From: Acholeplasmataceae bacterium
GTDB taxonomy: Bacteria > Bacillota_I > Bacilli_A > ML615J-28 > CAG-698
Assembly: GCA_012841865.1 (NCBI GenBank)
Contig: DUTX01000072.1
Coordinates: 1 to 57,674, forward strand
Direction of reading: 5' to 3'
DNA: 57,674 bases
Shown here: piece after piece, positions 7,617-33,309 of the stretch
How positions within the stretch are numbered: the first letter of the stretch is position 1
How the letters are laid out: every line of letters starts with the position of its first letter
Program-made: the position numbers and the translations under genes
Notes under the pieces: generated by a model
Seen by the model: only the letters and a program-made list of their open reading frames with translations
Databases searched by the model: none
What the model was told of the DNA's origin: nothing

Positions 7617-7645
7617 AAAAAAGATAAAACTACTCAGTCTTATCT
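7617..7645 (-). terminator. Intrinsic terminator overlapping the end of the ysxE-like gene
   Basis: AAAGATAAGACT, a 4-base loop and AGTTTTATCTTTTTTC (minus strand) form a stem with one mismatch. The 5' arm is inside the last codons of the 311-residue gene. Confidence 0.6.
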
Positions 7646-8565
7646 TTGTTTAGGTCGAAAGCAAAAAGAAAGTCTTTGATTGAAGTGCTCGCATAAAGGA
7701 AGCTTTGACAACTCACATAATCTTTATCGTAGATAACGATTCCTTTCATGTAATAAAGCAAGACCAAAAAATAGAAATAATTGCGATAGAAATCATCATC
7801 GAATTTATCGAAATACTGATTGACCAAGGGAACTAAATCAATATTAATATCTTTGGAATTCAGATAAAACTTTGAAATATCAAGAGAAGTGATTCCGACT
7901 TTGGCCTTCTCAATACTTGTCAGAAACCTTTGGCCGCGATAAGTTAAAAGATGGTTTGTTTTCGGATTATTATGGACAAAAGCGTAATAAACGCTTTTTT
8001 TATCTTTGATATCGGAAACTAAGCGGCGATGAATTCTACCCATCACCTTTTTCGCATCCAGCAAATGCCGATAGTTTTTTAATACGGGAATACTGAATTC
8101 GTCAAAATCGCGAGTTTCAAGGGTTCTGATATAAGCTTCCAAAACATTAAATTTATACTGGAGATATTCAAACAAGAGTTCCATTTTCCGGCGGGAGAAA
8201 TCTACCGAAAGCTGTCTTTTAAAGAATGTGTTATTATGGAGGTCGGTCAATTCATCAAGGAGGTTTACGGCTCTGATTTCGCCGATAATATCGGGACAAT
8301 TTACATAATCCATAACGAAATACTTCTCGTTTCGGTAGTCGCTCACGAATTCACCCAAGCGGTTTTTTAGCGGATAGAGAATGTTTTTGATTCCTTGATT
8401 ATAGAGAAAATTATACTTTTCCTTCGCATAGAGTTCGCTCCGTTTTGAGAAAAAATAGAGCTCCTCTTTGGTTTTCAAACGATAGGTTTTGGAAGTAATT
8501 GGTTTATAGGAAGCAAAGGATAAATTATAAAGATCTCTGAAGCCGCGGAATACACTGCGAATCAT
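7630..8565 (-). CDS. YsxE/CotS-like degenerate kinase-fold protein (spore-coat family)
   Basis: The 311-residue product has no signal peptide and resembles the CotS/YsxE spore-coat kinase-fold family in length, aromatic-rich N-lobe and its C-terminal H-x-N-P-x3-N-x-L-L segment (HNNPKTNHLL), which takes the place of the usual H-G-D-P-x3-N-L-L catalytic loop. The catalytic Asp is Asn here, and the metal-binding IDF position reads TSIEKA, so it is probably a pseudokinase. Its ATG overlaps the spoVID-like stop (ATGA). The order engB-(spoVID-like)-(ysxE-like) matches Bacillus subtilis once the hem genes are removed. I infer family membership from synteny and motif shape, not strong identity. Confidence 0.65.
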   Translation of the reverse strand: MIRSVFRGFRDLYNLSFASYKPITSKTYRLKTKEELYFFSKRSELYAKEKYNFLYNQGIKNILYPLKNRLGEFVSDYRNEKYFVMDYVNCPDIIGEIRAVNLLDELTDLHNNTFFKRQLSVDFSRRKMELLFEYLQYKFNVLEAYIRTLETRDFDEFSIPVLKNYRHLLDAKKVMGRIHRRLVSDIKDKKSVYYAFVHNNPKTNHLLTYRGQRFLTSIEKAKVGITSLDISKFYLNSKDINIDLVPLVNQYFDKFDDDFYRNYFYFLVLLYYMKGIVIYDKDYVSCQSFLYASTSIKDFLFAFDLNKDKTE

Positions 8566-9329
8566 TTTATGATAATACGGCGTTTGTTGATAAAGTCAGA
8601 TTTTTGGTTATCACGGTAAACTTTATCAACGCTGACCCTCTCGTTCTTACAGATTTGTTCAATATCGGTTTCTTTGCTTGTATAAAAAACTTTAACAGAT
8701 TTGTAATCTTCTTTAATACTGTTCAAAAAGCTCCGGCAATCAGAGTTGGACTCACCGCTATGAATCGTGATCGCTTTCTCCGGTTCCGGTACGTAAAAAT
8801 TTTCTTCGGCTCGTTCCTCCAAAATTTCATTTAATAATTCATTGTATTTTTGATTAATCTCGGCTTTAATCTCATCATCGCTAAGCATTACTTCATCATA
8901 ATCTTCTGTAGCGGGTGCATCAACAGGATGATCTTCATTAGCTTCTAAAACCGGTACTTCCTCAACTACTTCTTCTTGAAATGTATCTTCCAAAACTTCA
9001 ACATCTGTATCTGTTTTTGTTACATAATCAACGACAATATTAAACTGGCATTCAACTCCTTGATTGATTATTTCCTGACAATTGAAATCCTCAACTTCAA
9101 TCTTATTGATTTCAAAATTACGATCTTTAAAAACTATTGTAAAGGGAACCATTTCCCTGAAGTCAAACAAATTGTCCATATCATCTTTAATATATTTTCC
9201 GCTGATTCTGATATTTCCTTCGAGCGTATCACCTTTAACTGTAAAATTTTCAATATCGCAATGAATTTCGTTTACATTCGTCATCTTTTCTAATTTGACC
9301 GAGGCATCACAACAAATCCTTAGTTCCAT
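8562..9329 (-). CDS. SpoVID-like protein: SPOCS-type N-terminus, acidic linker, LysM-like C-terminus
   Basis: SpoVID is the spore-coat encasement factor of Bacilli. This 255-residue protein has a beta-rich N-terminal domain (about 1-105, from LRICCDASVKLEK through IVVDYV) like the SPOCS domain of SpoVID, a very acidic linker (about 106-190, many Glu/Asp), and a C-terminal roughly 45 residues (VKVFYTSKETDIEQICKN then VSVDKVYRDN) that fit a LysM fold. A GGAGGGATATT site precedes the ATG. It overlaps the ysxE-like gene by 4 bases. SpoVID of B. subtilis has the same order but is about twice as long, mainly in the linker. Whether the organism sporulates cannot be told from this window. Confidence 0.7.
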   Translation of the reverse strand: MELRICCDASVKLEKMTNVNEIHCDIENFTVKGDTLEGNIRISGKYIKDDMDNLFDFREMVPFTIVFKDRNFEINKIEVEDFNCQEIINQGVECQFNIVVDYVTKTDTDVEVLEDTFQEEVVEEVPVLEANEDHPVDAPATEDYDEVMLSDDEIKAEINQKYNELLNEILEERAEENFYVPEPEKAITIHSGESNSDCRSFLNSIKEDYKSVKVFYTSKETDIEQICKNERVSVDKVYRDNQKSDFINKRRIIIK

Positions 9330-9374
9330 AATATCCCTCCTATATAGAATATTATGAGAAATAATAAAAAAATA

Positions 9375-9399
9375 GAACTTAAGTAAGGTCCTTAAGTTC
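9375..9399 (-). terminator. Intrinsic terminator after engB
   Basis: GAACTTAAG, a 7-base loop and CTTAAGTTC, then TATTTTTTTA on the minus strand, lie just after the engB stop. The spoVID-like gene therefore has its own transcript or depends on read-through. Confidence 0.8.
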
Positions 9400-9404
9400 C
9401 GATT

Positions 9405-9974
9405 TTAGACAAGTAATTTTCTGATTTCTTCAATTCCCATTTTTGTTTTTGAGGAAGTTAAAATCAAATCTTCGTCGTGAAGATTCATTCTTTCTTTAAT
9501 CTGTTTACGATGTCTTAAGACAAGAGTTTTTCCGATTTTATCTGCTTTAGTGGCAATTATTTTAGTCTTAATCTTAAAATGGTTCAGGTAAGCAGACATC
9601 ATTAAATCATCCGTTGTCGGGCCGACTTTCGTATCGACCAAAAGAAAAGCGATTTTTAAATTCGGGTTGTTTTTTAAATAGTTTTCAATATAAGTTCCAA
9701 AATCAAGCCGTTTTTCTTTGCTTCTAACTGCATAACCATAACCCGGAACATCAACCAGATAAAAGGAATCGTCAATCAAAAAGAAATTTATTGTTTGTGT
9801 TTTACCGGGTTTTGCGGAAGTATGGGCAAGGAGGCGCCTGCCTGTAATCGCATTGATTAAACTGGATTTGCCGACATTGGAGCGTCCTAAAAATACATAT
9901 TCGGACAAACCGGTTTTATTCGGATATTGTGCTTTTGAAACAGCGCTGATAATATATTCACATTTTTTATACAT
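9405..9974 (-). CDS. engB: Ribosome biogenesis GTP-binding protein EngB (YsxC/YihA)
   Basis: This TRAFAC-class GTPase is needed for late 50S assembly. G motifs are visible: G1 GRSNVGKSS, G2 PGKTQT, G3 DVPGYG and G4 TKADK, with the SSKT-type G5 near the C-terminus. I take the ATG at 9974 (189 residues), which has a GGGGGAA ribosome site; the frame extends to 10013 without one. In B. subtilis ysxC is followed by hemAXCDBL and then spoVID-ysxE; here it is followed directly by the spoVID-like gene. Confidence 0.95.
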   Translation of the reverse strand: MYKKCEYIISAVSKAQYPNKTGLSEYVFLGRSNVGKSSLINAITGRRLLAHTSAKPGKTQTINFFLIDDSFYLVDVPGYGYAVRSKEKRLDFGTYIENYLKNNPNLKIAFLLVDTKVGPTTDDLMMSAYLNHFKIKTKIIATKADKIGKTLVLRHRKQIKERMNLHDEDLILTSSKTKMGIEEIRKLLV

Positions 9975-10024
9975 AATTTCCCCCATTAGTAAAAACACAT
10001 ATGGATTTGCCATATGTGATTAAA

Positions 10025-10376
10025 TGGATTGTATTCTGTAAGCCTTGTTCTGTACTTCCAAAGGAAGCGGTAATCATTTATCTCTACCACGTGCTGTGAT
10101 AGCCCTAAATCCGTTCATTTCCGAATTTAAGGTTCCCCTACCATAATTTGGGTTTCTAGCTTATGGGGTTTACCCGTTTCACTTCCCGGTTTCCCGAGAA
10201 CTTCGTCACTGTGGCACTTTATGAAGAATCGCCATTTGACAGGTTCATCTCCGCCATCACTTTCCCAAGTGTCCTAACTTATGGTTTCATTAGGCATAAA
10301 CACTACATGCATCTCAGCATGTGCTAGCAAGGACTTTCCTAACGGATTTTCATCCGTTCGATTACCCGAATACATT
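10025..10376 (-). ncRNA. rnpB: RNase P RNA (rnpB)
   Basis: This is the catalytic RNA that matures tRNA 5' ends. Read on the minus strand, the conserved block AGGAAAGTCC (10331-10340) follows a P2/P3-like stem (AACGGAT/ATCCGTT). The 3' part holds the matching ACAGAA element, and GTATTC (10368-10373) pairs with GAATAC (10031-10036) to close P1. The GAAGTGAAACGGGTAAACCCC segment region is also typical. Length is about 350 bases. Exact ends are estimated from the P1 helix. Confidence 0.9.
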
Positions 10377-15736: not shown

Positions 15737-16381
15737 TTATTTTTCTAATTCATTTAAGACTGATGTAACAACTCTATTTTTAATAGCTTTCGCATTACTA
15801 AGTAGTTCGGAACATTCTTTTAAGCAAGCCGTTTTAAATTCTTCGTCAGCAAAACCAGACAAATTCGTTTTCACATTCATAATCGCGCCTTCTAGTCCGG
15901 CAATAAGCAATAAGGTGCCGACTCCAAAATCGGAAAGAGCAGTTTTGGTTGCATGTTCTAACATCGGTTCTGCTACCACTAAAGCTTCGTAGGCAAGTTT
16001 TGCGGTTTTTAAGGGAACATTGGTTGCTTCAATCGTTGCGAGCCTGATTTTCTCTTTTCGCTTCGCAATTTCTTCATCCGTTGTTTTAGCCATTCGGTAA
16101 GCATTTAAAATCTTATTGAAAGCGGCACTGTCCAAATCGACCAAAGTAATCGCTTCTTGTTTTAGCCCTTCGAGCTTTAAAAATCTATTTGTATAATCAG
16201 ATTTGATGTCGTCAGGTAATGCTTGAAACTTCTTTTTCGTAATCGTAATCTGAGCAACCATTCTGATGAGCCCAATTCCGAAAGCAATTGTTTGAGCAGA
16301 GACTGATCCCCCTCCCGGAGTGGGAGCAGCAGAATCTACTTTATCTAAAAATTCATTAACCTTGAGTTCAAAAAAATTCAT
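15737..16381 (-). CDS. Formimidoyltetrahydrofolate cyclodeaminase (FchA/FTCD C-domain type)
   Basis: Converts 5-formimidoyl-THF to 5,10-methenyl-THF and ammonia, the folate-linked end of histidine breakdown. The 214-residue product has the stand-alone cyclodeaminase length and the signature DSAAPTPGGGSVSAQ (about residues 16-30); the rest is the expected all-helical fold. It is the last gene of the hut operon, 10 bases after hutI, with an AAGGAGG site. No glutamate formimidoyltransferase, which would supply its substrate, lies in the window. Confidence 0.9.
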   Translation of the reverse strand: MNFFELKVNEFLDKVDSAAPTPGGGSVSAQTIAFGIGLIRMVAQITITKKKFQALPDDIKSDYTNRFLKLEGLKQEAITLVDLDSAAFNKILNAYRMAKTTDEEIAKRKEKIRLATIEATNVPLKTAKLAYEALVVAEPMLEHATKTALSDFGVGTLLLIAGLEGAIMNVKTNLSGFADEEFKTACLKECSELLSNAKAIKNRVVTSVLNELEK

Positions 16382-16391
16382 TAGTCCTCCT

Positions 16392-17636
16392 TCATTTAAC
16401 CTTCTTTCCTTTTATATAGACTTCTTCTACAAGATTAATTCCGAATCGGTAGAAGAAATAATCAAGATTAGGAGCAGCAAGCACGACAAAATCAGCATCC
16501 ATTCCCGGCATCAATCTACCCTTAGTTGCTTCCAAACCAGAAGCCTTCGCCGCATTTACCGTAACAGCAGTTAAAGCCTCTTCGGGTGTCATTTTCATCT
16601 TCAAGACCGCAAACTGCATAGCCAGCTGCAAGTTTTCCGAAGGACTACTTCCGGGGTTATAGTCGCTTGCAAGCGCAACAGCACAACCATAATCAATCAT
16701 TGCTCGCGCTTTAGCAAATGGTTTGTTCAGATAAAATGAAGTTAAAGGTAGTAGCACAGCAATTGTATCGCTTGAAGCAAGTTTCTGCAAATCTTCATCA
16801 CTTGAAGCTAGGAGATGTTCGGCAGATACAGCCTTTAATTCAGTCGCAAGCGCAGCTCCACCGAGCGCACTCATCTCATCCGCATGGATTTTCAGTTTAA
16901 ACCCTAACTCTTTCGCAAGCCCTAAAAACTCCCTGCTTTCAGAGACAGAAAAAACTCCTTCTTCGCAAAAGATATCAACGAAACTTGCTAGGTTTCTTTT
17001 TTTAATTTCATAAAGCGCTTTTTCCAGCAAAGCAAAATAAGCTTGACGATTATCATGGTACTCACCTGGAAGCGCGTGTGCTCCCATAAAGGTACTCACA
17101 AGCGTCTGAGGTCCTTCGGCCTTTAACTTAGCTACAACCTCAAGTTGTTTAAGTTCGGTTTCAAGGTCCAAGCCATAACCGCTCTTTGCTTCTACTGATG
17201 TCACGCCGAACGAAAGCATCCGTTCCAGGGTTGTGCGTGCCTCTTTATATAGAGTATCAAAGGAAGCTTCCCGGGTTTTACGAACGGTACTTAGAATACC
17301 GCCGCCACTTTTTAAAATCTCGAGATAGGATTCGCCTTGTAGTTTTCTTCGCATTTCATTTTCCCGGGATCCAGCAAAGACCAAATGTGTGTGGCTGTCA
17401 ATAAATCCCGGCACGACCGTTTTTCCAGCTAACGAATAAAAGTTTGCATCTTGATATTTTAAATAGCCGTTTCCGCTACCTACCTCTTTGATTTTTCCTG
17501 CTTCTACAACTATATAACCGTTTTGAAGTGGCTTGACATCGGTCATTGTAGAACCTTTTCGTAAGGGGGAGCCTTCTAAGATATATAAAAGGTTGATGTT
17601 GTGATAAACAGAAAGTTTATTTTCCGCCGGGGACAT
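16392..17636 (-). CDS. hutI: Imidazolonepropionase HutI
   Basis: Hydrolyses 4-imidazolone-5-propionate to N-formimino-L-glutamate. It is an amidohydrolase of 414 residues with metal-ligand motifs DSHTHLVFAG (about 83-92), IHADEM (His plus the catalytic Glu) and ALASDYNPG (Asp). The start at 17636 has GGAGGAAAT upstream and overlaps the hutU end by 20 bases, so translation is coupled. Together with hutH and hutU it gives the conserved first three steps of histidine catabolism. Confidence 0.96.
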   Translation of the reverse strand: MSPAENKLSVYHNINLLYILEGSPLRKGSTMTDVKPLQNGYIVVEAGKIKEVGSGNGYLKYQDANFYSLAGKTVVPGFIDSHTHLVFAGSRENEMRRKLQGESYLEILKSGGGILSTVRKTREASFDTLYKEARTTLERMLSFGVTSVEAKSGYGLDLETELKQLEVVAKLKAEGPQTLVSTFMGAHALPGEYHDNRQAYFALLEKALYEIKKRNLASFVDIFCEEGVFSVSESREFLGLAKELGFKLKIHADEMSALGGAALATELKAVSAEHLLASSDEDLQKLASSDTIAVLLPLTSFYLNKPFAKARAMIDYGCAVALASDYNPGSSPSENLQLAMQFAVLKMKMTPEEALTAVTVNAAKASGLEATKGRLMPGMDADFVVLAAPNLDYFFYRFGINLVEEVYIKGKKVK

Positions 17637-19653
17637 ATTTCCTCCTAATCAAGTCTTGAAGCATTTCCTCATTTACCAAATAAGGAAGTGTAATCTGATC
17701 GTTTGAATTTTTATTATGTTCAATCGCCGTATTAAGCGAATTCGGATTTCTTGCCCAGGCTCTTCTTGCAATACCGCCGATAACATCAAAGGAAAGTGCG
17801 GATTTGATAATCTCATCAACACGCTTGGAACCGTCAAGCAAAAGACCGAAACCGCCATTGATCGATTTTCCGATGCCGACGCCGCCGCCGTTATGTAATA
17901 CGGCCATAGTCATACCGCGAGCACAGTTCCCCGCAAAGACATGTGTTGCCATTTCCGCCATGATATTTGAACCGTCTTTAATATTTGCGGTTTCGCGGAA
18001 AGGTGAATCGGTGCCGCCAGTATCATGGTGGTCGCGACCGAGCATTATCGGTCCGACTTCTTGATTGCGTACCATCTCATTAAATTTCAAAGCAATTTTA
18101 ACTCTGCCGATAGCATCTTGATAGAGAATTCTGGCTTTTGCTCCGACAACAAGATTATACTTTTTAGAATTCTTTATCCAATTATAATTATCAAGATCTT
18201 GAAATCTCCGTACTTTATCAATACAGCTTAAGGCCGCTTGGTCTGTTTTATCTAAATCTTCTTCCCTTCCGCTCAAGCAAACCCAACGGAAAGGACCGTA
18301 ACCATAGTCAAAGAGAACGGGTCCCATGATATCTTCAACATAACTCGGCCAAATAAACCCGTCGTTGGGGTTTACTCTATTTCTACAAATCTCTTGAATC
18401 CCGGCATCATATACAGCTTTCATAAAACTGTTGCCGTAATCAAAGAAATATGTTCCTTTAGATACAAGCGATTTAATAACATAGAAATGTCGTTTCAGAC
18501 TGATATTAACCAGTTGGATAAATTTAGCTTTATCTTCCTTCAACATTTCCGTACGTTCTTCGTAAGAAAGACTGACCGGACAATAACCACCGTCATAAAC
18601 ATTATGACAGGAAGTTTGATCGCTAAGTAAATCTATCTTGATATTATTGTTGTCTGCATACTCAAGTAAAGATACGATATTACCGTAATAGGCAATCGCC
18701 CGCGGTTCTTTTTTATGGATATATTCATAAGCAAGTTTAAAAGCTTCTTCAGGGGAAGTAGTGATATTATGAATCCAACCCTGATCATATCTGGTTTTTA
18801 TCCTTGAATAATCCACTTCCGCAATCACACCGACGCCACCTGCGATTTCGGCCGCTTTTCCTTGGGCACCGCTCATGCCGCCAAGGCCGCTTGAAACAAA
18901 AAGTTTTCCGGCTAGGTTTGCATCATACGGTACCCTAAGTTTTTGTCTTCCGGCATTAAGGAGTGTAGAATAAGTACCGTGGACAATCCCCTGAGGGCCG
19001 ATATACATCCAGCCACCGGCAGTCATTTGGCCGTAGGAAGCCACACCGAGGCTTGCGGCACGGTTCCAATTTTCTAAGTCATCATATAGTCCGACCATTA
19101 AACCATTGGTAATGATGACACGCGGAGCATTAGGGTGTGATTTAAAAATTCCAAAAGGATGGCCGGAAGCTACAACCAAAGTTTGGTCTTCTTCTAATTC
19201 TTCTAAATAGCGTTTTACCAGCCAATACTGCATCCAGTTTTGGAAAACAGCTCCGGTTTCGCCGTAAGTTATAAGTTCATAAGGGTAAAGCGCAACCTCG
19301 GGATCTAAGTTGTTGTCGATCATCACCTGTAAGGCGCGTCCCGCCAGGGTTTTGCCTTTGTATTCTTCTAGTGGTTTTCCGTAAATCCGCTCCTTAGGCC
19401 GGAAACGATAACCATAAATCCGCCCTTTGGTTAGAAGTTCATCCAGAAATTCCGGTGCAAGCTCTTCATGCCACTTTTCCGGAATATAACGTAAAGCATT
19501 TTTTAAAGCAAGAGCGGTTTCTGCTTCACTTAACACAAATTCACGTTTCGGTGCTCTTCTTAACTTTGGATCAAACTCCGGATATTCGGGAAGATCCGTA
19601 AAGATGGCATCAAGTTTTATTTTCATTGCTTCAGAAATTAATTTATTATTCAT
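17617..19653 (-). CDS. hutU: Urocanate hydratase HutU (long form)
   Basis: Adds water to urocanate to give imidazolonepropionate, using tightly bound NAD. The Rossmann-like segment SSGLGGMSGAQGKAAEI is present, as are the conserved WMYIGPQGI and QTSCH (with the family Cys). At 678 residues it belongs to the long urocanase form (like the animal enzyme, about 676) and not the roughly 555-residue form of Bacillus and Pseudomonas. It starts 9 bases after hutH. Confidence 0.97.
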   Translation of the reverse strand: MNNKLISEAMKIKLDAIFTDLPEYPEFDPKLRRAPKREFVLSEAETALALKNALRYIPEKWHEELAPEFLDELLTKGRIYGYRFRPKERIYGKPLEEYKGKTLAGRALQVMIDNNLDPEVALYPYELITYGETGAVFQNWMQYWLVKRYLEELEEDQTLVVASGHPFGIFKSHPNAPRVIITNGLMVGLYDDLENWNRAASLGVASYGQMTAGGWMYIGPQGIVHGTYSTLLNAGRQKLRVPYDANLAGKLFVSSGLGGMSGAQGKAAEIAGGVGVIAEVDYSRIKTRYDQGWIHNITTSPEEAFKLAYEYIHKKEPRAIAYYGNIVSLLEYADNNNIKIDLLSDQTSCHNVYDGGYCPVSLSYEERTEMLKEDKAKFIQLVNISLKRHFYVIKSLVSKGTYFFDYGNSFMKAVYDAGIQEICRNRVNPNDGFIWPSYVEDIMGPVLFDYGYGPFRWVCLSGREEDLDKTDQAALSCIDKVRRFQDLDNYNWIKNSKKYNLVVGAKARILYQDAIGRVKIALKFNEMVRNQEVGPIMLGRDHHDTGGTDSPFRETANIKDGSNIMAEMATHVFAGNCARGMTMAVLHNGGGVGIGKSINGGFGLLLDGSKRVDEIIKSALSFDVIGGIARRAWARNPNSLNTAIEHNKNSNDQITLPYLVNEEMLQDLIRRKYVPGGK

Positions 19654-19662
19654 ATTATCCTC

Positions 19663-21186
19663 CTACTCCAAGGTTCCAATTTTCTCCTCGATAGCTCCCA
19701 CAAACTTAGGGTCAAAAATAATCTTTTCCGCAAGTTCCAAATATGGATACATAATCGCATCGTTTTCTATAAAAGGAACTTTATTTCGAAAATATTGATA
19801 AGCAATCGCACTGCCCTGACCTAAAGTCTTTTTTCTAAAGTCAAGCGCTTGACAGGCTGAAAATACTTCCGTGGCAAGCACCTTCCAAGCATTCCCGACA
19901 ATTTCGCGGGCTTGTCTTGCTGCAATGGTGCCCATCGAAACATGGTCTTCTTGGTTTCCTGAAGAAGGAATTGAATCAACGCTTGCAGGATGCGCCAAGA
20001 CTTTATTTTCACTTACCAAAGAGGCAGCACTATATTGAACAATCATAAAACCGGAATTTAAGCCCGGATTAGCAACAAGAAAAGCAGGTAGACCGGCATT
20101 TAAAGCCGGATTAACCAATCTTTCGATTCTTCTTTCACTGATATTAGCAAGTTCAGCGGCAGCTATTTTTAAGAAATCAAAAGCCTGAGCCATAATCTCG
20201 CCATGAAAGTTTCCGCCGGAATAGACCTTATCTACACCAAAAATCAAAGGATTATCGGTTGCGGCGTTCATTTCAATTTCTACTTTTTCTTTTATATATT
20301 GCAAAGCATCGCGGCTTGCTCCATGGACTTGTGTAAGGCAGCGCAGCGAATAGGCATCCTGAACTCGTACTTCACCTTGGGAGGTAAGATGTTTGCTTCC
20401 TTCGGTTAGTTTGCGGATATTGTTTGCGGAAGCGATTTGGCCAAATTGGCCACGCGCTTGATGGACTTCGGGAGCAAAGGCTTCCCGGACTCCAAGTAAC
20501 GCTTCCAAAGATAGTGCTCCGGCAATATCAGCAACCTTAGCAAGTCTTAAAGCATCATAAAGCGCCAGGGCACCGATTGCGGTCATAGCTTGCGTGCCAT
20601 TGATAATTGATAGTCCTTCTTTTGCTTCCAAACGTGGTAAAGGTTTGATTCCGGCCTGAGTCAAAGCCTGTGACGCTTTCATCAATTTGCCTTGATAATA
20701 GACTTCACCTTCGCCAAGTAAGGTTAACCCCATATGAGCAAGGGGCGCTAAATCACCGCTTGCGCCTAAAGAGCCTTGGGCGGGAATTGCAGGAATAATG
20801 TTTTGATTTAAATAGAGCAATAATTGTTTAACCGTCTCTAGCCTAATTCCGGAATACCCACGGGCGAGGGCATTGATTCTTAAAAGCATAATGCCACGGA
20901 CTTCTTCTTCGCTTAAATGCGATCCGACACCACAGGCATGGGATTTTAAAAGATTAAGTTGCAGTGTTGATAAATCCGAATTGGAAATCACCATTTCAGA
21001 AAATTTTCCAAAGCCTGTATTTAAGCCATAAACCTTACGGTTTTCTTTTACAATCTTAGCAATAGTTTTTTGAGCAGCAATAATTCGCCTTTCTGCCTCT
21101 TCCGATAAGAATACTTCTTCTTGATAACGGGCAACCCGAATAAATTGTTCTAAATCTAAGTTATGGCCGCTGATTTCGATTGCCAT
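19663..21186 (-). CDS. hutH: Histidine ammonia-lyase HutH
   Basis: Deaminates histidine to trans-urocanate, the entry step of the pathway. The MIO cofactor triad Ala142-Ser143-Gly144 is visible in GSLGASGDLAPLAHM; YGLNTGFG (about 53-60, catalytic Tyr) and SGNQEDHVSMG are conserved. The 507-residue length is normal. The ATG follows GGAGGAAGAAC. First gene of a four-gene operon with its own promoter. No HutP, HutR or other obvious regulator is adjacent, nor a histidine transporter. Confidence 0.98.
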   Translation of the reverse strand: MAIEISGHNLDLEQFIRVARYQEEVFLSEEAERRIIAAQKTIAKIVKENRKVYGLNTGFGKFSEMVISNSDLSTLQLNLLKSHACGVGSHLSEEEVRGIMLLRINALARGYSGIRLETVKQLLLYLNQNIIPAIPAQGSLGASGDLAPLAHMGLTLLGEGEVYYQGKLMKASQALTQAGIKPLPRLEAKEGLSIINGTQAMTAIGALALYDALRLAKVADIAGALSLEALLGVREAFAPEVHQARGQFGQIASANNIRKLTEGSKHLTSQGEVRVQDAYSLRCLTQVHGASRDALQYIKEKVEIEMNAATDNPLIFGVDKVYSGGNFHGEIMAQAFDFLKIAAAELANISERRIERLVNPALNAGLPAFLVANPGLNSGFMIVQYSAASLVSENKVLAHPASVDSIPSSGNQEDHVSMGTIAARQAREIVGNAWKVLATEVFSACQALDFRKKTLGQGSAIAYQYFRNKVPFIENDAIMYPYLELAEKIIFDPKFVGAIEEKIGTLE

Positions 21187-24263: not shown

Positions 24264-27200
24264 TTACATTGCAGGAAACACGGTTAAGACCGGCATTCCA
24301 TCAACAATAATCCACAAGCCTTCTGTTAAAGCAGGAAGGTTTTCTTCAAACCATGTTAAATCGAGGGTTTCGAAATCAATAATTACATTATCTTCTGGTA
24401 CGGTTTGACCATCTCCAGGTATTCCCGGCAAGGTAAAGTTTCCACCAAATACTGAGGTAAGTTCTAGGTCAGCATATCTACCAGTAACAACATTCCAGTA
24501 TTTTGTGCTATCTATAATTAAATCTTTGATAATTACATCAGAAACTTTTCCGTCTAGATATCCACTTTCTGTTCTTCCGACCAGTGCAGCAACATATTGA
24601 CTACCTTCTACTTTGACATTCTCTAATACCACACGGTTTAAAGCAAAGGCTACTGATTCTTTGACATAACCAACAACAGCTCCTACATGTTCTGTTGCTT
24701 TAACATAAATGTTGGATAAATGAATGTCGTTGATGATAGTAGCTCCTATTCCACGAGAATAAGCAACGATAATACCGGCGTTTTTGTTTCCAGTATTAAT
24801 TACGGTTGCATTATCAATTCTGATATTTGAGAAGGTTGCGCCACCTTCTCCTGCTTTAATAACTGCAACTATGCCACCGACTCCGTTACCGTTATTTCCA
24901 GTAACTTCTAAACCGTTTATAACAATATTTTCAATCACGACACCTGTACGATCAATTTCACCGGCAATCAAACCAGCGCGACCAGAGCTGGTAATTGATG
25001 CATTTTCAAATACTATGTTTTTCACAACACCGCGCAAGTATGTAAACAAGCCCGCTCTGTCTCCACCTGAATAGGTCAGATTGCTGATAGTATACCCTTG
25101 GCCATCCAAAATACCGGCAAAGGATTTAGGTGTATAGGTTTGATCTGTCATATCAATATCGCCGGTTAGAACATATCTTTTTTCTTTCGGGTCATTCAAG
25201 AAAGCAACGAAATCTTCAACCGTGTTAATTTCGGTTGCTTCTGCTTCTGACCAAGCAGCATAAAGTGTAATTTCCTCTGTAATCTGAGTATCCAGTTCAA
25301 ACGGTACTGTCAAATTTAGATCAGTAAACCAACCGTCGAAGTTATAGAACTTCCTTTCACATACCAATTCCGGTAATACTTCACCAGGATTTAGATAAAG
25401 ATATGTAATCTCATTTCCGCCCAGCTTAACAATTCCGCCGTTTGCTTCAATCATTACCTTAACCAAAGGATTCCACTTCGCATAAAGCGTAATGTCTGCT
25501 GTAATCGGAGTATCAAAATCAAATTCATTTTCAAAGCCAGCATCTGTGAACCAACCAGCAAAAGCAAACCCTTCTTTTGTCGGCACAGCAGGCTCTGTTG
25601 CTTTTTCGCCTTCAAATACGTTTTGTGCCTCTACTACACTTCCACCATCGGTTTCAAAAGATACTGTATAAAGAGGAATTTCTACTTCTTCGAAATATCC
25701 ATAAAGAGTTAAATCTTCAATGATTAAAGTCTCAGAATCAAACGGAGTTTCAAAAGCCTCATCCAAGAACCAACCTTTGAATTCGAAACCTAACTTTTTA
25801 GGTACCGGAAGTACGGCTTGTTGATTAGCCCGAACTTCAATTGGATCGACTACAAAATCTTCAACTACAAAAGTAATTGTATATTTTACAATCTCTTCTC
25901 TGATAAGACTAGCGAATCCTGCAGTATCCCAAAGGTCGGAATCAGCAATATTCGGCATATTAGTTGTCCACCAGGAAGAAACAGAAACATCTTCGAGACT
26001 AGTAAGTGTATTTTCTGCAGGTGCCGATTGTTTATTCTTACCATCGCCTTCGCCATCAAGAGCTACTGCCCAAACATTAACGGCTTCGTTAAATGCCTTA
26101 TTTCCGGAAATAGCACCGCTATCACTGCTTGAGGTTGCAAGTAGTTTGCCGGTTACTAAAGCATCATAAACATATGCTGTTCCATCATTCTTGCCGAGTA
26201 AACCGCCGATATTCTTTGAACCGGTTAAATCAACCTTTGCAATAACACGATTAAGCGTTAAGACTCCACTAGAGCCGACCCGGCCAACGATTCCACCAAC
26301 TAATTGAGGATTTGATGAATCTTCTGTAACTTTAATTTCCACATCGAGATCACTCATATCAAGTTTAGCCTCTGCATAGCTAACTAAGCCGCCGACATAT
26401 TTTCCGTAAACCATAACCTCAGAAGCTACGACTTTCAAATTCGAAATCTCGGTTTCACCATTGACTCTTCCGATTATTAAGGCTCCGTGCATATCTGAAC
26501 CAAGAGTAGTACTGTCGCCAACAATAACTTTAGAATTAATTATCGTGATATTTGTTACGGTTACCTTAGAACCGCTGGTTCTACCAGAAATAACTCCGGA
26601 ACGTTCACCTTCGGAAATGATGTTGATGTTTTCGAAGACGATATTTTTAATGGTTGCTCCATCAAGTTCCTCAAAGATTCCGCCGTAAATTCCTTTAGGT
26701 ACGTTCATGGTCAGATTGGAAATTAAATGACCGTTTCCATCAATGATTCCGTAGAACTTCTCAACAAATTCTTCCCAAACAAATCCGGTAAAGTCTAAAT
26801 CGGCATTTAATAGATAATAATAATTTTGTTGATCCGATTTTGTTGAATGAACTGCTTGATAGAACTCTTCCGGAGTTGATATCAATTGTACCGGTTTCCG
26901 GTTAAGTTCATGCGAATGAACTTCAGTTTCGCCATTAAGAACAACCAAGATATGAATATAAGTATTATCGTCAATTGCCAGATCTTCAATAACGACGATT
27001 TCGGAAGTTACTTCTACTTGTGAACCGGTTTTTACTGTTTCAGCAGTTTCAGTTTCATTTGTACTTAAGAAGTAGTAAAGTGTGCCTGCAGGCTGAACCA
27101 GTTTAACGGTAACATTTGTGAGCCAATCAGGATGTATTGAAAGCGTAGATTCAACACTAACAATCTCGTTCGGTTCACCTTCCGCATAAACAACGACTTC

Positions 27201-28427
27201 TTGTTCTACTTCTATTACATCACTTGCATCAGTTTTATTTGTGAATTTATAAGTAACTTCATATTCGCCAGAAACTGATGTGTCGACTTCATTAATTACT
27301 TCGAGCGTATAATCCGTACCTTCTACAAGCTCGCGTTTGTCTGCATAGTAGTTAAATACTTTTGGTGTTGCAGGAATAAATTCAGTTCCTTCTTTAATGC
27401 TTACATCTTCAATACCAGTAATTTCACCAAGTTTAACTTTTTCCTCAGGACGTGGCAAAGCTTCAGGACGATTAATTGTGATATTTGTAATATATGCGGG
27501 CGCTCTTAATTCTGTAGTTGTAGAACTTCCGGTTCTGATATAGAAGCTTTGTAAGTTTGTTGAACCTTGGAATTCAACTTTACCCGGAGTAATAGCTATA
27601 AGTTGCCCTGTACCTTCTTCGTAATAGAAGAGTTCAATTGTTTTATTCGCTAAATCAACTTCAAAACGAGCACGATACCATTTGTTGAGTTCAACAGGTA
27701 TTCCAGGTTGCTCACCATTATCAACGCGATAATACAGATTTCTACCATTAAGTCCAAAAGCGACTACTGGAGAACTAGATCCTGATTGTAAATGGATTGA
27801 AGTAGCATCTGATGATACGGTTTGCATTAAGTCAACTTCAATTACAACAAAATCATAATCATGTTTAATTGAAGCTTCAAGTGTTCTTTCGGTAAAGGCT
27901 TCGACTTTTAATGCTTTCGAACCTTCCGGAATCTCGACTCCCTCAATCGAACTTACAACCGTAAAGATTGAAGATCCCGCTTTACCGGAAACAACATTCC
28001 ATAAATTTTGCTGACCTTCAATATTGCCGTCTGCGTAGGCTTTGAAATCCTCAGCAAGTAATGGTTCTGTTTCAGATAACGGTGGTAAAGCCAAAACCTT
28101 TCCCTTAAACTCTTTTGTACGTGTAACTTTGTTTAGGGTGAGGGTTGCGGTTAATTTGACTTCTTGATCCCCTACCTCGTGGGGAGGCTGAGAAATATTT
28201 CCATTTTCGTCAATATACTCGGGCTTATCAATTTCCCAAGTAATAGTAACGCCGTCTTTTTCTTTCGGCATTATAATTCGGGGACTGTCATTGGTAAGAC
28301 TGTCCGTTAGTCCAGGTAGCTCTAACCAGTCATAGACTTCGTCTACTTTTTTCTGGTCGCCATCCTTACATGCTACAAAAACAAAGAGCAATGAAAACAG
28401 GCAAAGAATCCCCAGAAACTTTTTCAT
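24264..28427 (-). CDS. Giant surface lipoprotein: Ig-like, LamG-like, two GLUG-type beta-helix blocks and InlB repeats
   Basis: The 1387-residue product begins with a lipoprotein signal (lipobox FVAC). In order it shows: an atrophied bacterial Ig-like domain (about 30-125), a concanavalin/LamG-like domain (about 130-320), Ig-like stretches (about 325-510), a beta-helix with GLUG-like turns (about 530-810), three InlB B-type repeats (about 860-1075; FKGWFLDEAF, FAGWFTDAGF and FDGWFTDLNL mark each unit), and a second beta-helix (about 1080-1340). It is the last gene of the pectin operon, so polysaccharide binding or a further lyase/esterase role is plausible, but no catalytic residues can be assigned. 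A GGAGGTAAT site fixes the start. Confidence 0.82.
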   Translation of the reverse strand: MKKFLGILCLFSLLFVFVACKDGDQKKVDEVYDWLELPGLTDSLTNDSPRIIMPKEKDGVTITWEIDKPEYIDENGNISQPPHEVGDQEVKLTATLTLNKVTRTKEFKGKVLALPPLSETEPLLAEDFKAYADGNIEGQQNLWNVVSGKAGSSIFTVVSSIEGVEIPEGSKALKVEAFTERTLEASIKHDYDFVVIEVDLMQTVSSDATSIHLQSGSSSPVVAFGLNGRNLYYRVDNGEQPGIPVELNKWYRARFEVDLANKTIELFYYEEGTGQLIAITPGKVEFQGSTNLQSFYIRTGSSTTTELRAPAYITNITINRPEALPRPEEKVKLGEITGIEDVSIKEGTEFIPATPKVFNYYADKRELVEGTDYTLEVINEVDTSVSGEYEVTYKFTNKTDASDVIEVEQEVVVYAEGEPNEIVSVESTLSIHPDWLTNVTVKLVQPAGTLYYFLSTNETETAETVKTGSQVEVTSEIVVIEDLAIDDNTYIHILVVLNGETEVHSHELNRKPVQLISTPEEFYQAVHSTKSDQQNYYYLLNADLDFTGFVWEEFVEKFYGIIDGNGHLISNLTMNVPKGIYGGIFEELDGATIKNIVFENINIISEGERSGVISGRTSGSKVTVTNITIINSKVIVGDSTTLGSDMHGALIIGRVNGETEISNLKVVASEVMVYGKYVGGLVSYAEAKLDMSDLDVEIKVTEDSSNPQLVGGIVGRVGSSGVLTLNRVIAKVDLTGSKNIGGLLGKNDGTAYVYDALVTGKLLATSSSDSGAISGNKAFNEAVNVWAVALDGEGDGKNKQSAPAENTLTSLEDVSVSSWWTTNMPNIADSDLWDTAGFASLIREEIVKYTITFVVEDFVVDPIEVRANQQAVLPVPKKLGFEFKGWFLDEAFETPFDSETLIIEDLTLYGYFEEVEIPLYTVSFETDGGSVVEAQNVFEGEKATEPAVPTKEGFAFAGWFTDAGFENEFDFDTPITADITLYAKWNPLVKVMIEANGGIVKLGGNEITYLYLNPGEVLPELVCERKFYNFDGWFTDLNLTVPFELDTQITEEITLYAAWSEAEATEINTVEDFVAFLNDPKEKRYVLTGDIDMTDQTYTPKSFAGILDGQGYTISNLTYSGGDRAGLFTYLRGVVKNIVFENASITSSGRAGLIAGEIDRTGVVIENIVINGLEVTGNNGNGVGGIVAVIKAGEGGATFSNIRIDNATVINTGNKNAGIIVAYSRGIGATIINDIHLSNIYVKATEHVGAVVGYVKESVAFALNRVVLENVKVEGSQYVAALVGRTESGYLDGKVSDVIIKDLIIDSTKYWNVVTGRYADLELTSVFGGNFTLPGIPGDGQTVPEDNVIIDFETLDLTWFEENLPALTEGLWIIVDGMPVLTVFPAM

Positions 28428-28443
28428 ATTACCTCCTTTATTT

Positions 28444-28878
28444 TTATCCTTTATATTTGTCACAACTGAACCCTTCCTTAGGAGCCACAGTAAATAATAA
28501 TTTTGCGGTCCTAGTTAAGCCTTTATAAGTTAGTGTAACGTCAATCACGACGGGCCAGTTATCATTAAGTCCTTCGTAAACTTTTTCGCCTTTTTGATCC
28601 CGGCTTTCAAGCCAACACTCATCAGGTAGCTGTACAATACCTTCATCACTGATGATTTCTGGATTTCTTGATTTATAGGTAATCTGGACACCTTTATATT
28701 CAGTTGGTAGCCCAAGATCTCCAGCTTCGGTAATAAGAGTCTTTGTTTTAGTTTTCATACCGGAGAGATCTTCTGCTTCCACTAAAAGTGCATAGATATC
28801 ATCTTCATCAGTTTTGTTACAGCCCACAAAAGTAAAAGCTAAGACAATAATCATTAATATGCCAAATATTTTTTTCAT
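28444..28878 (-). CDS. Small lipoprotein with an Ig-like fold
   Basis: The 144-residue product has a lipoprotein signal (lipobox FVGC) and one domain (about 30-138) resembling the N-terminal Ig-like domain of the giant lipoprotein next to it: a region like VQITYKSRNPEIISDEGIV (compare W-x-I-x-x-P-E-Y-I-D-E-N-G in the neighbour) and a closing TLTYKGLTRTAKLLFTV. It may be a duplicated, stand-alone version of that domain. It starts 4 bases after the stop of the PL2-like gene and is 16 bases upstream of the giant lipoprotein start. Confidence 0.72.
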   Translation of the reverse strand: MKKIFGILMIIVLAFTFVGCNKTDEDDIYALLVEAEDLSGMKTKTKTLITEAGDLGLPTEYKGVQITYKSRNPEIISDEGIVQLPDECWLESRDQKGEKVYEGLNDNWPVVIDVTLTYKGLTRTAKLLFTVAPKEGFSCDKYKG

Positions 28879-28882
28879 CCCG

Positions 28883-30649
28883 TCACTCCCAATCATAAAT
28901 GGTCTTTGTATAAATGATCCGATGTGAATAATTTCGGTCTTCTACAACACCATCATCGGCTAAGAGATAACCGTGAATATAACCTGAATCAGCCAAATAG
29001 AACGGCATTTCGTCTAATTTATACCCCTTAATAACACCGTCAAGAATTAAAAGTGCTAATGTATCGGGTTGGTCAAGACGGCTATATAACAAGATTTCAT
29101 TTTCTACAAAGAATCCGCGGTGGAATCTTTCTTTGACGATATTGTTACCGATAGTTCTTGCAACATTTAAATAATCGATATTCTTTGTTGCATTATACAA
29201 CTCAACCAAAGCCATTAAAGCAAAGGGGTCATCGATTGATGTATCCAAGTTTAGACTCGGTTTTTTACCGCCGAGTTCGCCGATATCACCGATATTAAAG
29301 CTATACATAATATCGCGCAAATAATTCCAGAGCACGACTTTATCTTCATCCTTTTCTAAGTTAAGAATCGTTCTTAAAATCGGTAAAATATAAGTAGTCG
29401 GCATCTCAACATAATCAAGTGGGGTATTTGAAGGCCCATAATAACCGACTTCCGGAAAAACATAACCATAAGTGACGGTTCCGTCAATAAACATCGGGAT
29501 GATTTTATTGGTTCCGTTAACCCGAATGTAGGCGTATTTCAGATATCCTTCCAAATATTGTTTCGCCCACTCGATAAATTCCGGAATATTGTATTTTCTG
29601 CCCGACTCTACAAGCATCAAGATATTATCGACATAAATTGCTTGGGTGTTTTTCCAGGCAATATTTGCTTCTCTAGCAATCTCGCCAAAGTCGCGGAATT
29701 GTCTTCTTGCCCTGTCACCGCAACCAGAGTTTGTATAAGCGGGGTCGGAACATTCCTGCGGACTCTTGGTAATCAGGGTTGATTTGAATTGATAAACTGT
29801 CATTCCGGTCGCGGGGTCGGAAGCTAAATTGTATTGTTTCATTAAGTATCTGGCCCAGTCCTTCGGAGACGGATCATAGGTATATTCAGCTAAAGTCAGC
29901 GCCGCATAGGAAAGGTCGGTTGCGGAGTTGACAAAGGGAAGTTTCCCCGGAGAGTCTTCCGGAATAATCGGTCTTCCGTTTGTTCCAAGTTTGATGATAT
30001 CTTCAGGAATTTTTCCGCCAAAAACATTAGTATCATAAGCCGTACTATAACTGCCGTGACGGTTTAAATCGGAAGTATCCCATTCATAATGCGCTGTCCA
30101 AAGCTGACGCATAAATCTTAAGGTTGCATCCGGATCAACTTCATACATCAGTTCATAGTAAGGCATCATATTTTTTAGTTCATGCGGTCCGTTCGGTCCT
30201 TCGGTCGATTGAACTTCAAGGGTATCAAGATTAATCATCCTGTGGCCGCCCCAGTAAAAGAGCCCGTTTGGATCCTGGTAATTTTTCATAAATTCAGAAA
30301 GCGTTGCTACAGCTTGCTCTTTATATTTAGAATTACCGGTTACCGTACTTAATGCTACAAGCGTTCTAAAGAAATTTTGTTGGTTAGCGAGATTAGCATA
30401 AGGAACGGTTGCTCGGTTCGGAAATACCCATTTAGCCGGTTCGCCGGTCAAAGTGTTGATCGCATCAGGCAGTAACTGGGTATCGGGATTATATCTTCTA
30501 CCATATTTTAATATGTTTTCTACATGATGAATAACTGCATTTAAACGCTTATAATCATCTTCGGTATAGGTAACTTTTGATGATTTACAACCGATAGGTC
30601 CGATTAAAATCATTAATACTAAAGAAAGGAATATTAAGACCTTTTTCAT
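28883..30649 (-). CDS. Pectate lyase, PL2-type (Pectate_lyase_2 family), lipoprotein
   Basis: Probable exo- or endo-pectate lyase that cleaves polygalacturonate by beta-elimination. The 588-residue product has a lipobox (GPIGC) and an (alpha/alpha)-barrel-type sequence rich in Trp and Tyr. Conserved-looking segments: FYWGGHRMINLDT, then PHELKNMMPYYELMYEVD, TSDLNRHGSY and CGDRARRQFRDFGEIAREAN. These agree with the PL2 (PelW) family as I remember it, and the position after an oligogalacturonide-type transporter matches togMNAB-pelW of Dickeya. A surface-anchored PL2 is unusual, as PelW-type enzymes are cytoplasmic or periplasmic. GH105 or another barrel is the alternative. Confidence 0.62.
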   Translation of the reverse strand: MKKVLIFLSLVLMILIGPIGCKSSKVTYTEDDYKRLNAVIHHVENILKYGRRYNPDTQLLPDAINTLTGEPAKWVFPNRATVPYANLANQQNFFRTLVALSTVTGNSKYKEQAVATLSEFMKNYQDPNGLFYWGGHRMINLDTLEVQSTEGPNGPHELKNMMPYYELMYEVDPDATLRFMRQLWTAHYEWDTSDLNRHGSYSTAYDTNVFGGKIPEDIIKLGTNGRPIIPEDSPGKLPFVNSATDLSYAALTLAEYTYDPSPKDWARYLMKQYNLASDPATGMTVYQFKSTLITKSPQECSDPAYTNSGCGDRARRQFRDFGEIAREANIAWKNTQAIYVDNILMLVESGRKYNIPEFIEWAKQYLEGYLKYAYIRVNGTNKIIPMFIDGTVTYGYVFPEVGYYGPSNTPLDYVEMPTTYILPILRTILNLEKDEDKVVLWNYLRDIMYSFNIGDIGELGGKKPSLNLDTSIDDPFALMALVELYNATKNIDYLNVARTIGNNIVKERFHRGFFVENEILLYSRLDQPDTLALLILDGVIKGYKLDEMPFYLADSGYIHGYLLADDGVVEDRNYSHRIIYTKTIYDWE

Positions 30650-31503
30650 TACTTATTCCTCCTTTCCACTTTAACTTCATCGAGGAATGCCCAGCCTTTC
30701 GAATAACGAGGCATCGTGACTTTGAAGACATTGGGAACCAGAATTTCTCCGTCTTCTTCCGCATTGTAGCGATTGCTGATATGGAATTTCCCCGAATAAA
30801 GGAGTTCTTCTTCTTCATCTACAATAAGGAATGCTTGAACCAAATCTTCTTCCGCATCCCAAACAAACTTAAACCGATACCAAGTATCAAGTTTCGCTGT
30901 ATGGGAGGTTACAAAAGTATCACCGCCATCATTATTTCCGGAATAATAGAAGAAAGGTCCGCCGACTTTACCAAAGATCTTTAAATCCTTGCCGATAGTT
31001 ACTGAAATCGTATTGACGGCTCCGGTTGCAACGCCAACAGTTACGGAATTATAAGTATCTTCTTCCGGAAGCTCATCTTCAGCGGGAAGCATGACGCTTG
31101 CGTAAGCAATACCTTTTCTTTCTTTATCGAGATTAAACTTTGTTGTAAAGATAAATGTCGGAGTCGGAGCGTTTTGTGGATACATCGGCGCCCAAGCGCC
31201 ATCCGAATACATTTTCACAAACTTCCCGTTTTCCCCTTCCGCAACCACCGCCCTAACACCATTCGCTTTATATTCTTCGTTTGAATAAAGGAGCCAATTG
31301 CGGGGTTTTTGATTTAGGGCTTCGTCTTCAAAATTTTCATTAATTGTAAATTCTTCCTTTTCGGTAGGCTCAAATTCCAAATCATCCATCGGAAGATAGC
31401 AGCTTTCGTCAAAGGGCTTATTCTTACAATAATAATCCTTCCCATTGCAACCTGCGAGGGTAAAAATCAAACCAAACAGAAACAAAATCAAAAGTTTTCT
31501 CAT
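30649..31503 (-). CDS. Lipoprotein with concanavalin/LamG-like domain
   Basis: The 284-residue product has a lipoprotein signal (lipobox LAGC) and a beta-sandwich-like region (about 50-280) containing FTINENFEDEALNQKP at the start, DTWYRFKFVWDAEEDLVQAFL in the middle (a typical LamG/concanavalin 'thin sheet' element) and a final YSKGWAFLDEVKVERR. It probably binds polysaccharide at the cell surface. It lies between the transporter and the PL2-type lyase, and its TAA overlaps the lyase ATG (TAATG). No catalytic residues are identifiable, so a lyase function is possible but unproven. Confidence 0.68.
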   Translation of the reverse strand: MRKLLILFLFGLIFTLAGCNGKDYYCKNKPFDESCYLPMDDLEFEPTEKEEFTINENFEDEALNQKPRNWLLYSNEEYKANGVRAVVAEGENGKFVKMYSDGAWAPMYPQNAPTPTFIFTTKFNLDKERKGIAYASVMLPAEDELPEEDTYNSVTVGVATGAVNTISVTIGKDLKIFGKVGGPFFYYSGNNDGGDTFVTSHTAKLDTWYRFKFVWDAEEDLVQAFLIVDEEEELLYSGKFHISNRYNAEEDGEILVPNVFKVTMPRYSKGWAFLDEVKVERRNK

Positions 31504-31514
31504 AACTCACCTCT

Positions 31515-32414
31515 TTATCCTTTGATTGCTGAATCGGCTTCATTGCCAACAAAATACTTTTGGGCAGAAAAGAAGACAATAATCAAAACGATGACACTGA
31601 CAATTGAGCGGGCATAAACGCTCGCATAAGTATTTGTTGAATCGACTTTGAGTTGTGGTAAAACCAAACTCAAGGTATAGGTTTCAACACTTCCCCGATA
31701 AATTAAAGGACCTTGATAATCATTATAAGCTGCGATAAAGAGCAGTAAGGCGACGGTCATGATAATCGGTTTTAAAATCGGCATTAGGATATGATATAAA
31801 ACCTGGAGCCGACTTGCGCCGTCAATCATTGCCGCTTCGTCTAAATCTCGGGGAATGGTTCGAAAAAATTGAATATACATAAAAACAGAAAATGAATTCA
31901 CAGCAAATAGCGAACCGGCCCAAAGCGGAAAATAGGGCATAAACGGAAGTGAGGTATTTGTCCAAAGATTAGAGATCGGTTCACTTGTCCAAAAAGCATA
32001 CATCGGAATCCGAAAAATCGTATTCGGCATCAGTAGGGTTCCGATAATCAAAGCAAATACTATTTTCTTTCCCTTAAATCGAAATCTGGTCACCACATAG
32101 GCGGTAATTAGCGTCGTTAAGGTCATGAAAACGACTTGGGGAAGGACATATTGCATTGTATTCCATAAAGCTCTAAAAAGCGAATATCCGGGGTCGCCTC
32201 CCCAACCCGGAGCTTTAAAGGCATTTTGCCAACCTTCAAGCGTAAATTTCTCCGGCAGAAACCAAAGTGACGCTTTGGCTCCTTCGTTAAAGGAAGCACC
32301 GATAATCCAAAATAAGGGATAAATCATCAAGAAAGCAAAGGAAACGAGAATAGCAAACTTAATTGTTTCTTTAACTATCTTTTTTGTTTGTTGTTGTTTA
32401 AAATCTGTATTCAT
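31515..32414 (-). CDS. Carbohydrate ABC transporter permease, MalG/TogN type
   Basis: Inner-membrane subunit of a sugar or oligogalacturonide importer. The 299-residue product has six predicted membrane spans and the EAA loop EAAMIDGASRLQVLYHILMP (about 195-214) that contacts the ATPase. An AGGAGG site fixes the start. It is cotranscribed with the other permease, 9 bases apart. The ATPase gene expected after it is absent here. Confidence 0.92.
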   Translation of the reverse strand: MNTDFKQQQTKKIVKETIKFAILVSFAFLMIYPLFWIIGASFNEGAKASLWFLPEKFTLEGWQNAFKAPGWGGDPGYSLFRALWNTMQYVLPQVVFMTLTTLITAYVVTRFRFKGKKIVFALIIGTLLMPNTIFRIPMYAFWTSEPISNLWTNTSLPFMPYFPLWAGSLFAVNSFSVFMYIQFFRTIPRDLDEAAMIDGASRLQVLYHILMPILKPIIMTVALLLFIAAYNDYQGPLIYRGSVETYTLSLVLPQLKVDSTNTYASVYARSIVSVIVLIIVFFSAQKYFVGNEADSAIKG

Positions 32415-32423
32415 CTTGGCCTC

Positions 32424-33305
32424 CTAATCCTGATAATATACCCAATATCTGGAACTTCTGAAAATCAGAATTGTAAAGATCATGATGATTAAGAATAAAA
32501 TCCAACTCATGGCACTTCCGAGATTTAAGTTTCCACCATCGAAAGCGGTTTCATAAATTAATAAATTTATCAGCCTTGTTGAGTTTTCCGGTCCCCCCTG
32601 GGTAATCAGGTGCGGGCCGTTAAAGGCTTGGAAGCATTCAATCAAACGCATAACGCCGTTAAAAAGAATAATCGGCGTAATCATCGGTAAGGTAATATGG
32701 CGGAATTGTTGAACCTTATTAGCGCCGTCAATCATCGCCGCTTCGTAAAGCGTCTCGGGAACATTCTTTAGGGCATTGAGGAAAATCAACATAGTTGAAC
32801 CGAATTGCCAGACGCGAAGGGCAATAATACTGGCCATTGCTCCGGCTGGTTTTCCGAGGAAGGGAATCCTTTCAATCCCAAAGACCGCCAAAAAGTGATT
32901 GATTAGGCCTTCGGTTTCAAAGATATAACGCCAGAGAAATACAATTGCGACATTGGCTCCGAGCAAAGTCGGAATATAGAAAGCTGTTCTAAAGAAACCG
33001 ATACCTTTGATTTTTTTTGATAAAATATGAGCGATAAAGAGAGAGACAATCAGAATCAAAGGCACGGTAATAAACACATAGATAAAGGTCACTTTCAATG
33101 AATTAAGAAAATCCTGACCGATAGTAAGAGTAGTGTCAAAGAGTTCACGATAATGATGCAAACCAACAAAGGTGCTTGTTCTCCCTTTCTTCTCAAAAAG
33201 ACTCATCACAAAGGAATTAATAAAGGGATAGACTTTAAAAAGAAGAAAACCGATGCCCCAAGGAAGCAATAATACATACGGTAGCCACTTCTTTTCTCCA
33301 ACCAT
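32424..33305 (-). CDS. Carbohydrate ABC transporter permease, MalF/TogM type
   Basis: Partner permease of the same importer. The 293-residue product has six membrane spans and the EAA loop EAAMIDGANKVQQFRHITLP (about 187-206), followed by a C-terminal NSTRLINLLIYETAF segment common in this family. It starts 4 bases after the solute-binding protein gene. Confidence 0.92.
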   Translation of the reverse strand: MVGEKKWLPYVLLLPWGIGFLLFKVYPFINSFVMSLFEKKGRTSTFVGLHHYRELFDTTLTIGQDFLNSLKVTFIYVFITVPLILIVSLFIAHILSKKIKGIGFFRTAFYIPTLLGANVAIVFLWRYIFETEGLINHFLAVFGIERIPFLGKPAGAMASIIALRVWQFGSTMLIFLNALKNVPETLYEAAMIDGANKVQQFRHITLPMITPIILFNGVMRLIECFQAFNGPHLITQGGPENSTRLINLLIYETAFDGGNLNLGSAMSWILFLIIMIFTILIFRSSRYWVYYQD

Positions 33306-33309
33306 TATC

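Follow-up and report, generated by a model that had tools for sequence, protein, structure and literature searches.

The two genes that follow engB in the 57,674-nt stretch of DNA analysed here (the window) are best explained as a diverged spoVID–ysxE operon that most likely forms part of a working endospore programme, a reading to which we assign a probability of roughly 85%. It is based on homology, domain layout, synteny, the loss of catalytic residues, and a promoter-like box that is conserved, as well as on co-occurrence and co-loss with SpoIVA, Spo0A and cell wall genes. The gene products are regarded as working parts and not leftovers because the same genome carries the cell wall and sporulation machinery. 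Counting against this reading are scores below the curated cut-offs, the 5.6% contamination of the metagenome-assembled genome (MAG), a spoIVA gene of its own without the CATAnnnT box, and cultured relatives that have been described as lacking walls and spores. The source genome, from an uncultured relative of the wall-less mollicutes, is a draft MAG of 1.95 Mb in 189 contigs (98% complete; 5.58% estimated contamination). The features of the locus are as follows.

7630–8565, minus strand: YsxE-like spore-coat protein, 311 aa (TIGR02904, relatives' profile, AlphaFold2, Foldseek, motif counts)
8562–9329, minus strand: SpoVID-like coat morphogenetic protein, 255 aa (hhalign, independent profile, AlphaFold2 model)
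9349–9356, minus strand: predicted sigma-E-type −10 box, CATAATAT (conserved CATAnnnT, 19 nt upstream of the start codon of spoVID)
9374–9400, minus strand: intrinsic terminator 3′ of engB (10-pair stem and U tract; fold z = −4.2)
9405–10013, minus strand: engB (ysxC/yihA), ribosome-biogenesis GTPase, flanking gene (TIGR03598, 2.1e-59)
10034–10373, minus strand: rnpB, RNase P RNA class B, upstream of engB (RF00011, 271.5 bits)
10409–10381, minus strand: strong sigma-70-like promoter ahead of rnpB (promoter scan)

The open reading frames of engB and of the SpoVID-like and YsxE-like proteins lie where the preliminary description had placed them, and the latter two overlap by four bases (ATGA at 8565–8562). 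The listed start of engB at 10013 is near the 3′ end of rnpB, and the true start is probably an ATG at about 9974, located 3′ of a purine-rich stretch. The rnpB gene itself is positioned between pnp and engB, with a terminator-like hairpin (10455–10428) between pnp and rnpB.

Identity of the two proteins

The best-matching family of the YsxE-like protein was TIGR02904 (spore_ysxE; E value, 1.3e-12; 47.6 bits). This score is below the equivalog cut-off of 263.55 bits, which was reached by none of the 392 genomes in a sample of the phylum. The YsxE proteins of relatives matched the same model in 19 of 20 cases (best E value, 2e-28), and four of the 20 also matched CotS (TIGR02906). A phmmer search of the PDB with the single sequence gave no match, and a profile of relatives was required: built from 36 relatives, it found 2q83, the solved spore kinase YtaA/CotI, at 1.8e-6. 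The AlphaFold2 model (pLDDT 92) was matched by Foldseek to APH(9)-Ia, to aminoglycoside-phosphotransferase-like kinases, and to 2q83 (9.8e-9). In the window protein, the catalytic Asp is replaced by Asn200, and the structural His110 and Asp229 are retained. Among 16 members of the order, the catalytic position is Asn in 14 and Asp in none, and both structural residues are present in all 16. The protein, which has the bacterial spore kinase (BSK) fold, is predicted from these residues to be a pseudokinase.

YsxE has been classed as a pseudokinase that lost the catalytic Asp and kept the structural His and Asp, and it is a sigma-E-dependent coat protein whose gene shares an operon with spoVID (PMC2860764). 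Insertion into ysxE impairs sporulation in another Bacillus (PMC12700454). The window protein thus has in common with B. subtilis YsxE the residue pattern and the position after spoVID, and with the BSK family (CotI/YtaA, CotS, and YutH) the kinase-like fold. It differs in scoring 47.6 bits where the cut-off is 263.6, and the likeness is known through the TIGR02904 profile. In family f12 of the class, YsxE (L022, 1345–2319; L156, 1465–2472) keeps the HGDxxxxN motif typical of active kinases, in contrast to nearly all other YsxE proteins of the class.

The SpoVID-like protein was less readily recognized. Direct Pfam and NCBIfam scans gave no significant match and only chance-level families, PF20918, the model of the SpoVID N-domain, was not found in a search of the protein's own genome, and no member of the order passed the cut-off of TIGR02907 (SpoVID; best E value, 0.07, in a relative; the window protein was unmatched). 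These negatives do not refute homology to SpoVID, because profile–profile comparison succeeds. With hhalign, the order's 15-member profile aligned over its full length with the SPOCS and LysM proteins of other families (E value, 6.7e-12), its N-terminus alone with SPOCS N-termini (6.8e-11), and its C-terminus alone with LysM (3.9e-7); all controls (reversed, column-shuffled, swapped, and YsxE) gave E values of at least 0.005. An independent profile matched the single window protein with 34.6 bits. The proteins of other families of the class that are matched by PF20918 carry a C-terminal LysM, and their profile matches solved LysM domains, down to 1.3e-13.

According to the AlphaFold2 model, the SpoVID-like protein has a confident N-terminal beta domain (residues 1–104), a linker that is disordered save for one helix (~151–174), and a C-terminus (~208–255) with a strand-helix-helix-strand arrangement like that of LysM. 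Linker residues 105–206 are acidic (31 D/E vs. 7 K/R). Foldseek found no significant match and no solved relative for the whole model, probably because of the disordered linker and low pTM (0.40), so the identity of the N-terminal domain is based on the profiles. The linker helix (151–176, consensus ~IxxKYDxLLxxILxxRxDNF) is common to the order and was not apparent in SPOCS proteins from other families.

B. subtilis SpoVID also has a SPOCS-type N-terminus, an acidic linker, and a C-terminal LysM, and its gene stands directly before ysxE in a genome with SpoIVA, as is the case here. The window protein differs from it in being only 255 aa long and below the curated cut-offs, in its conserved helix ahead of LysM, and in a LysM GDT/S position that is neither Thr nor Ser. 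We call the protein SpoVID-like and do not certify it as an orthologue, because the curated equivalog cut-off was missed. For these genomes, this amounts to an annotation blind spot, as standard models miss SpoVID in them.

The two genes might instead encode a SPOCS/LysM protein and a kinase-fold protein that serve the coat in some other way and are not orthologous to SpoVID and YsxE, for example, a SipL-like protein with a CotS-like kinase. The sub-cut-off scores and the four relatives that match CotS as well fit such a pair, as does clostridial SipL; in Clostridioides difficile, this protein shows the same SPOCS and LysM plan within a SpoIVA-associated network (PMC10659427). However, the window protein finds its best family in TIGR02904, which is matched by nearly all relatives, the missing catalytic Asp agrees with what has been published for YsxE (PMC2860764), and the gene order on the engB side agrees with the spoVID–ysxE locus of B. 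subtilis. SipL is not known to have a YsxE partner or an engB neighbourhood. We therefore consider a different coat role unlikely, and the SpoVID/YsxE relationship proposed in the preliminary description is borne out by the TIGR02904 match and the SPOCS/LysM alignments.

Gene neighbourhood and its losses

Relatives from both families of the order show the arrangement engB–spoVID–ysxE, as does Candidatus Bathyoplasma. SPOCS-LysM/YsxE pairs were also identified in other families of the class (f11, f12, f14, f18, f19, and f24), and SPOCS–YsxE pairs stand behind engB in f14, f18, f19, f24, and f30; in the remaining families, the available stretch often ends early or another ORF lies upstream of the pair. 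These pairs consist of the same two genes, usually overlapping or adjacent. They differ from the window pair in that their SPOCS proteins still match PF20918 and that YsxE of f12 keeps the active-kinase motif. The neighbourhood is not random, in agreement with the preliminary description.

The B. subtilis order, ysxC(engB)-hemAXCDBL-spoVID-ysxE, had led to the proposal that this lineage kept the coat pair after losing its heme genes. The idea that heme loss is special to this lineage was ruled out: hemB was not found in 59 of 60 genomes and was present in one. Since the same gene order occurs in other families and hemB in a single genome, the compact gene arrangement and the missing heme synthesis are ancient and clade-wide, and the adjacency does not mark this lineage.

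In most relatives without sporulation genes, either a NUDIX gene or DUF177-rpmF comes immediately after engB. Two members of the same genus differ in this way, the arrangement being engB-spoVID-ysxE-DUF177-rpmF in G019 and engB-DUF177-rpmF in G006 (97% complete). In a PNPase tree covering 30 genomes, the distribution of the pair requires a minimum of five state changes; allowing losses alone brings the number, counted manually, to eight, of which seven fall in the family of the window (f1). The tree represents a single gene and has some weakly supported branches. In this family, the pair is kept in 9 of 28 genomes. As the losses include one within a genus, close pairs such as G019/G006 are available for studying the joint loss of wall and spore.

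That the two genes stand next to engB by chance, or that they come from a spore former contaminating the bin, is extremely improbable. The estimated contamination of the bin gives the latter some room, but the same locus is present in two congeners (YsxE identity, 83 and 79%) and across the order, the PNPase encoded on this contig clusters with that of congener G002, and SpoIVA on another contig of the same genome is 88–90% identical to that of the congeners. G001, one of the congeners, carries the name Acholeplasmatales bacterium DTU067 (LFRY01000045.1) and is placed in the Mollicutes by NCBI. A spoVID frameshift in G001 was only apparent and was due to a run of N in the assembly.

Sporulation and wall genes

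Relatives of the mollicutes are commonly regarded as having neither walls nor spores, and the cultured ones are described in these terms. The genome that carries the pair encodes Spo0A (3e-93), SpoIVB (6.4e-92), full-length SpoIVA (491 aa; 1e-169), SigG (6e-118), SigE (5.9e-89), SpoIIGA (1.2e-12), and MraY, together with three GerXA/B/C-type proteins that make up a GerA-type germinant receptor. ORFs beside sigE–sigG were judged by eye to be FtsZ-, MurB-, MurG-, and FtsW/SpoVE-like. The identities of sigE and sigG were assigned by NCBIfam; TIGR02885 (SigF), which matches nearly all genomes via other sigma factors, was used solely to locate the two genes. Accordingly, sigE, spo0A, and spoIVA, whose presence the preliminary description had proposed to check, are all found elsewhere in the genome, and the descent from a spore former that it suggested is upheld by the homology and synteny of the pair.

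In a set of 60 genomes, 22 were YsxE-positive, and none of these lacked SpoIVA, Spo0A, or MraY; for SpoIVA, the Fisher test gave p = 1.9e-14, a value that overstates the association because the genomes are related. Only G030 and G039 were SpoIVA-positive without a YsxE match. The loss of ysxE in G030 was only apparent, the stretch being masked as N; in G039, engB was not found either. The pair was absent at the same locus wherever sporulation genes were absent, even within one genus. In family f2, which is separate from f1 and includes a MAG named Anaeroplasma bactoclasticum, G038 and G042 (loci L229 and L232) kept spo0A but had neither spoIVA nor mraY nor the pair, as though sporulation were midway through being lost; G042 is only 65% complete.

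The preliminary description had also raised the possibility that the pair was repurposed in a wall-less or non-sporulating host. A relic or repurposed pair of this kind would fit the cultured mollicutes without walls and spores, the distance of the sequences from the B. subtilis models, and a 2025 classifier that gave Acholeplasmatales MAGs a 0% probability of sporulation (PMC12536801); SpoVID is among the 16 informative features of that published predictor. It is at odds, however, with the core regulators, SpoIVA, germinant receptor, and wall genes of the genome itself, with the disappearance of the pair wherever sporulation genes disappear, and with a SpoVID dN/dS of 0.10 against G002 (dS was saturated in most pairs, so the unsaturated G002 comparisons were used alone). 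We consider a relic or repurposed pair improbable, slightly more so than a different coat role. A walled, sporulating host is favoured because Spo0A, sigma factors, SpoIVA, the receptor, and wall genes are present.

Field et al. (2024; PMC10868615) described repeated losses of spores and walls in this region of the tree and noted that most Anaeroplasmataceae have spore genes; for the ancestors of Acholeplasmataceae and of UBA5453, they inferred that the loss was complete. The general pattern of spore and wall loss is therefore already known; the identity of the pair, its precise co-loss, and its promoter are added here. The pair is retained along with wall genes, SpoIVA, and Spo0A in two families of the order, one of which shows several separate losses.

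Predicted transcription unit, proposed coat role, and other window genes

The terminator at 9400–9374 separates engB from spoVID–ysxE. A CATAnnnT box, the core of the sigma-E −10 element, was found 12–50 nt upstream of the spoVID start at 14 of 18 loci of the order (13 of 18 by a stricter count, as the match in L011 lies elsewhere); these loci are related and not independent. The exact box was searched for, with dinucleotide shuffles and the upstream regions of other genes as controls: the shuffles gave 1.6 expected loci, and 4.6% of 285 other upstream regions contained the box. It is predicted to be a mother-cell (sigma-E-type) promoter element, as would be expected for this operon. The box also occurred in 11 of 22 spoIVA upstream regions and was not found in that of the window genome. 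The spoIVA upstream regions of L046, L047, L045, L040, and L043 lack CATAnnnT and share another element, approximately GAATATTnTTnATTAGAA, before the start.

From these data, we infer SpoIVA binding, expression timing, coat location, and actual spore formation, along the following lines. Sigma-E, which the genome encodes, would transcribe spoVID–ysxE in the mother cell from the operon's own promoter past the engB terminator. SpoVID, by means of the SPOCS domain together with the part that precedes LysM, would join the SpoIVA layer on the forespore and drive coat encasement; the conserved linker helix is a possible SpoIVA-binding region. The YsxE pseudokinase would enter the coat to serve in structure or binding, without catalytic activity. 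The same coat roles as those of B. subtilis SpoVID and YsxE are proposed by homology.

The LysM domain may have departed from this model. In a profile alignment read by eye, the GDT/S position was Asp in the window and Thr or Ser in none of 18 sequences of the order; SPOCS proteins elsewhere in the class had Thr or Ser there in 16 of 20 cases, also by eye. In B. subtilis SpoVID, the T532G substitution abolishes peptidoglycan binding, and we infer that the GDT/S position corresponds to T532. If so, the lipid II checkpoint may be absent. The B. subtilis SpoVID is a SpoIVA-binding protein; when SpoIVA misassembles, the LysM of SpoVID becomes exposed, sequesters lipid II, and inhibits SpoVK (PMC10659427).

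A wider reading can be offered tentatively, as one that we think somewhat more likely to be wrong than right. Part of the Acholeplasmatales would be living, walled, germinant-responsive endospore formers in which wall and sporulation were lost together many times, even within a genus. SpoVID would have kept its coat role, and its LysM would have lost the lipid II–sequestering function by which coat and cortex are linked in B. subtilis.

Other parts of the window were inspected by eye. Positions 15737–21186 hold an apparent histidine-utilisation cluster, unusual for a reduced mollicute relative, with cyclodeaminase-, imidazolonepropionase-, urocanase-, and histidine ammonia-lyase-like ORFs. Positions 24264–36055 contain a sugar ABC transporter, lipoproteins, and large repeat-rich secreted proteins, a content that suggests polysaccharide use.
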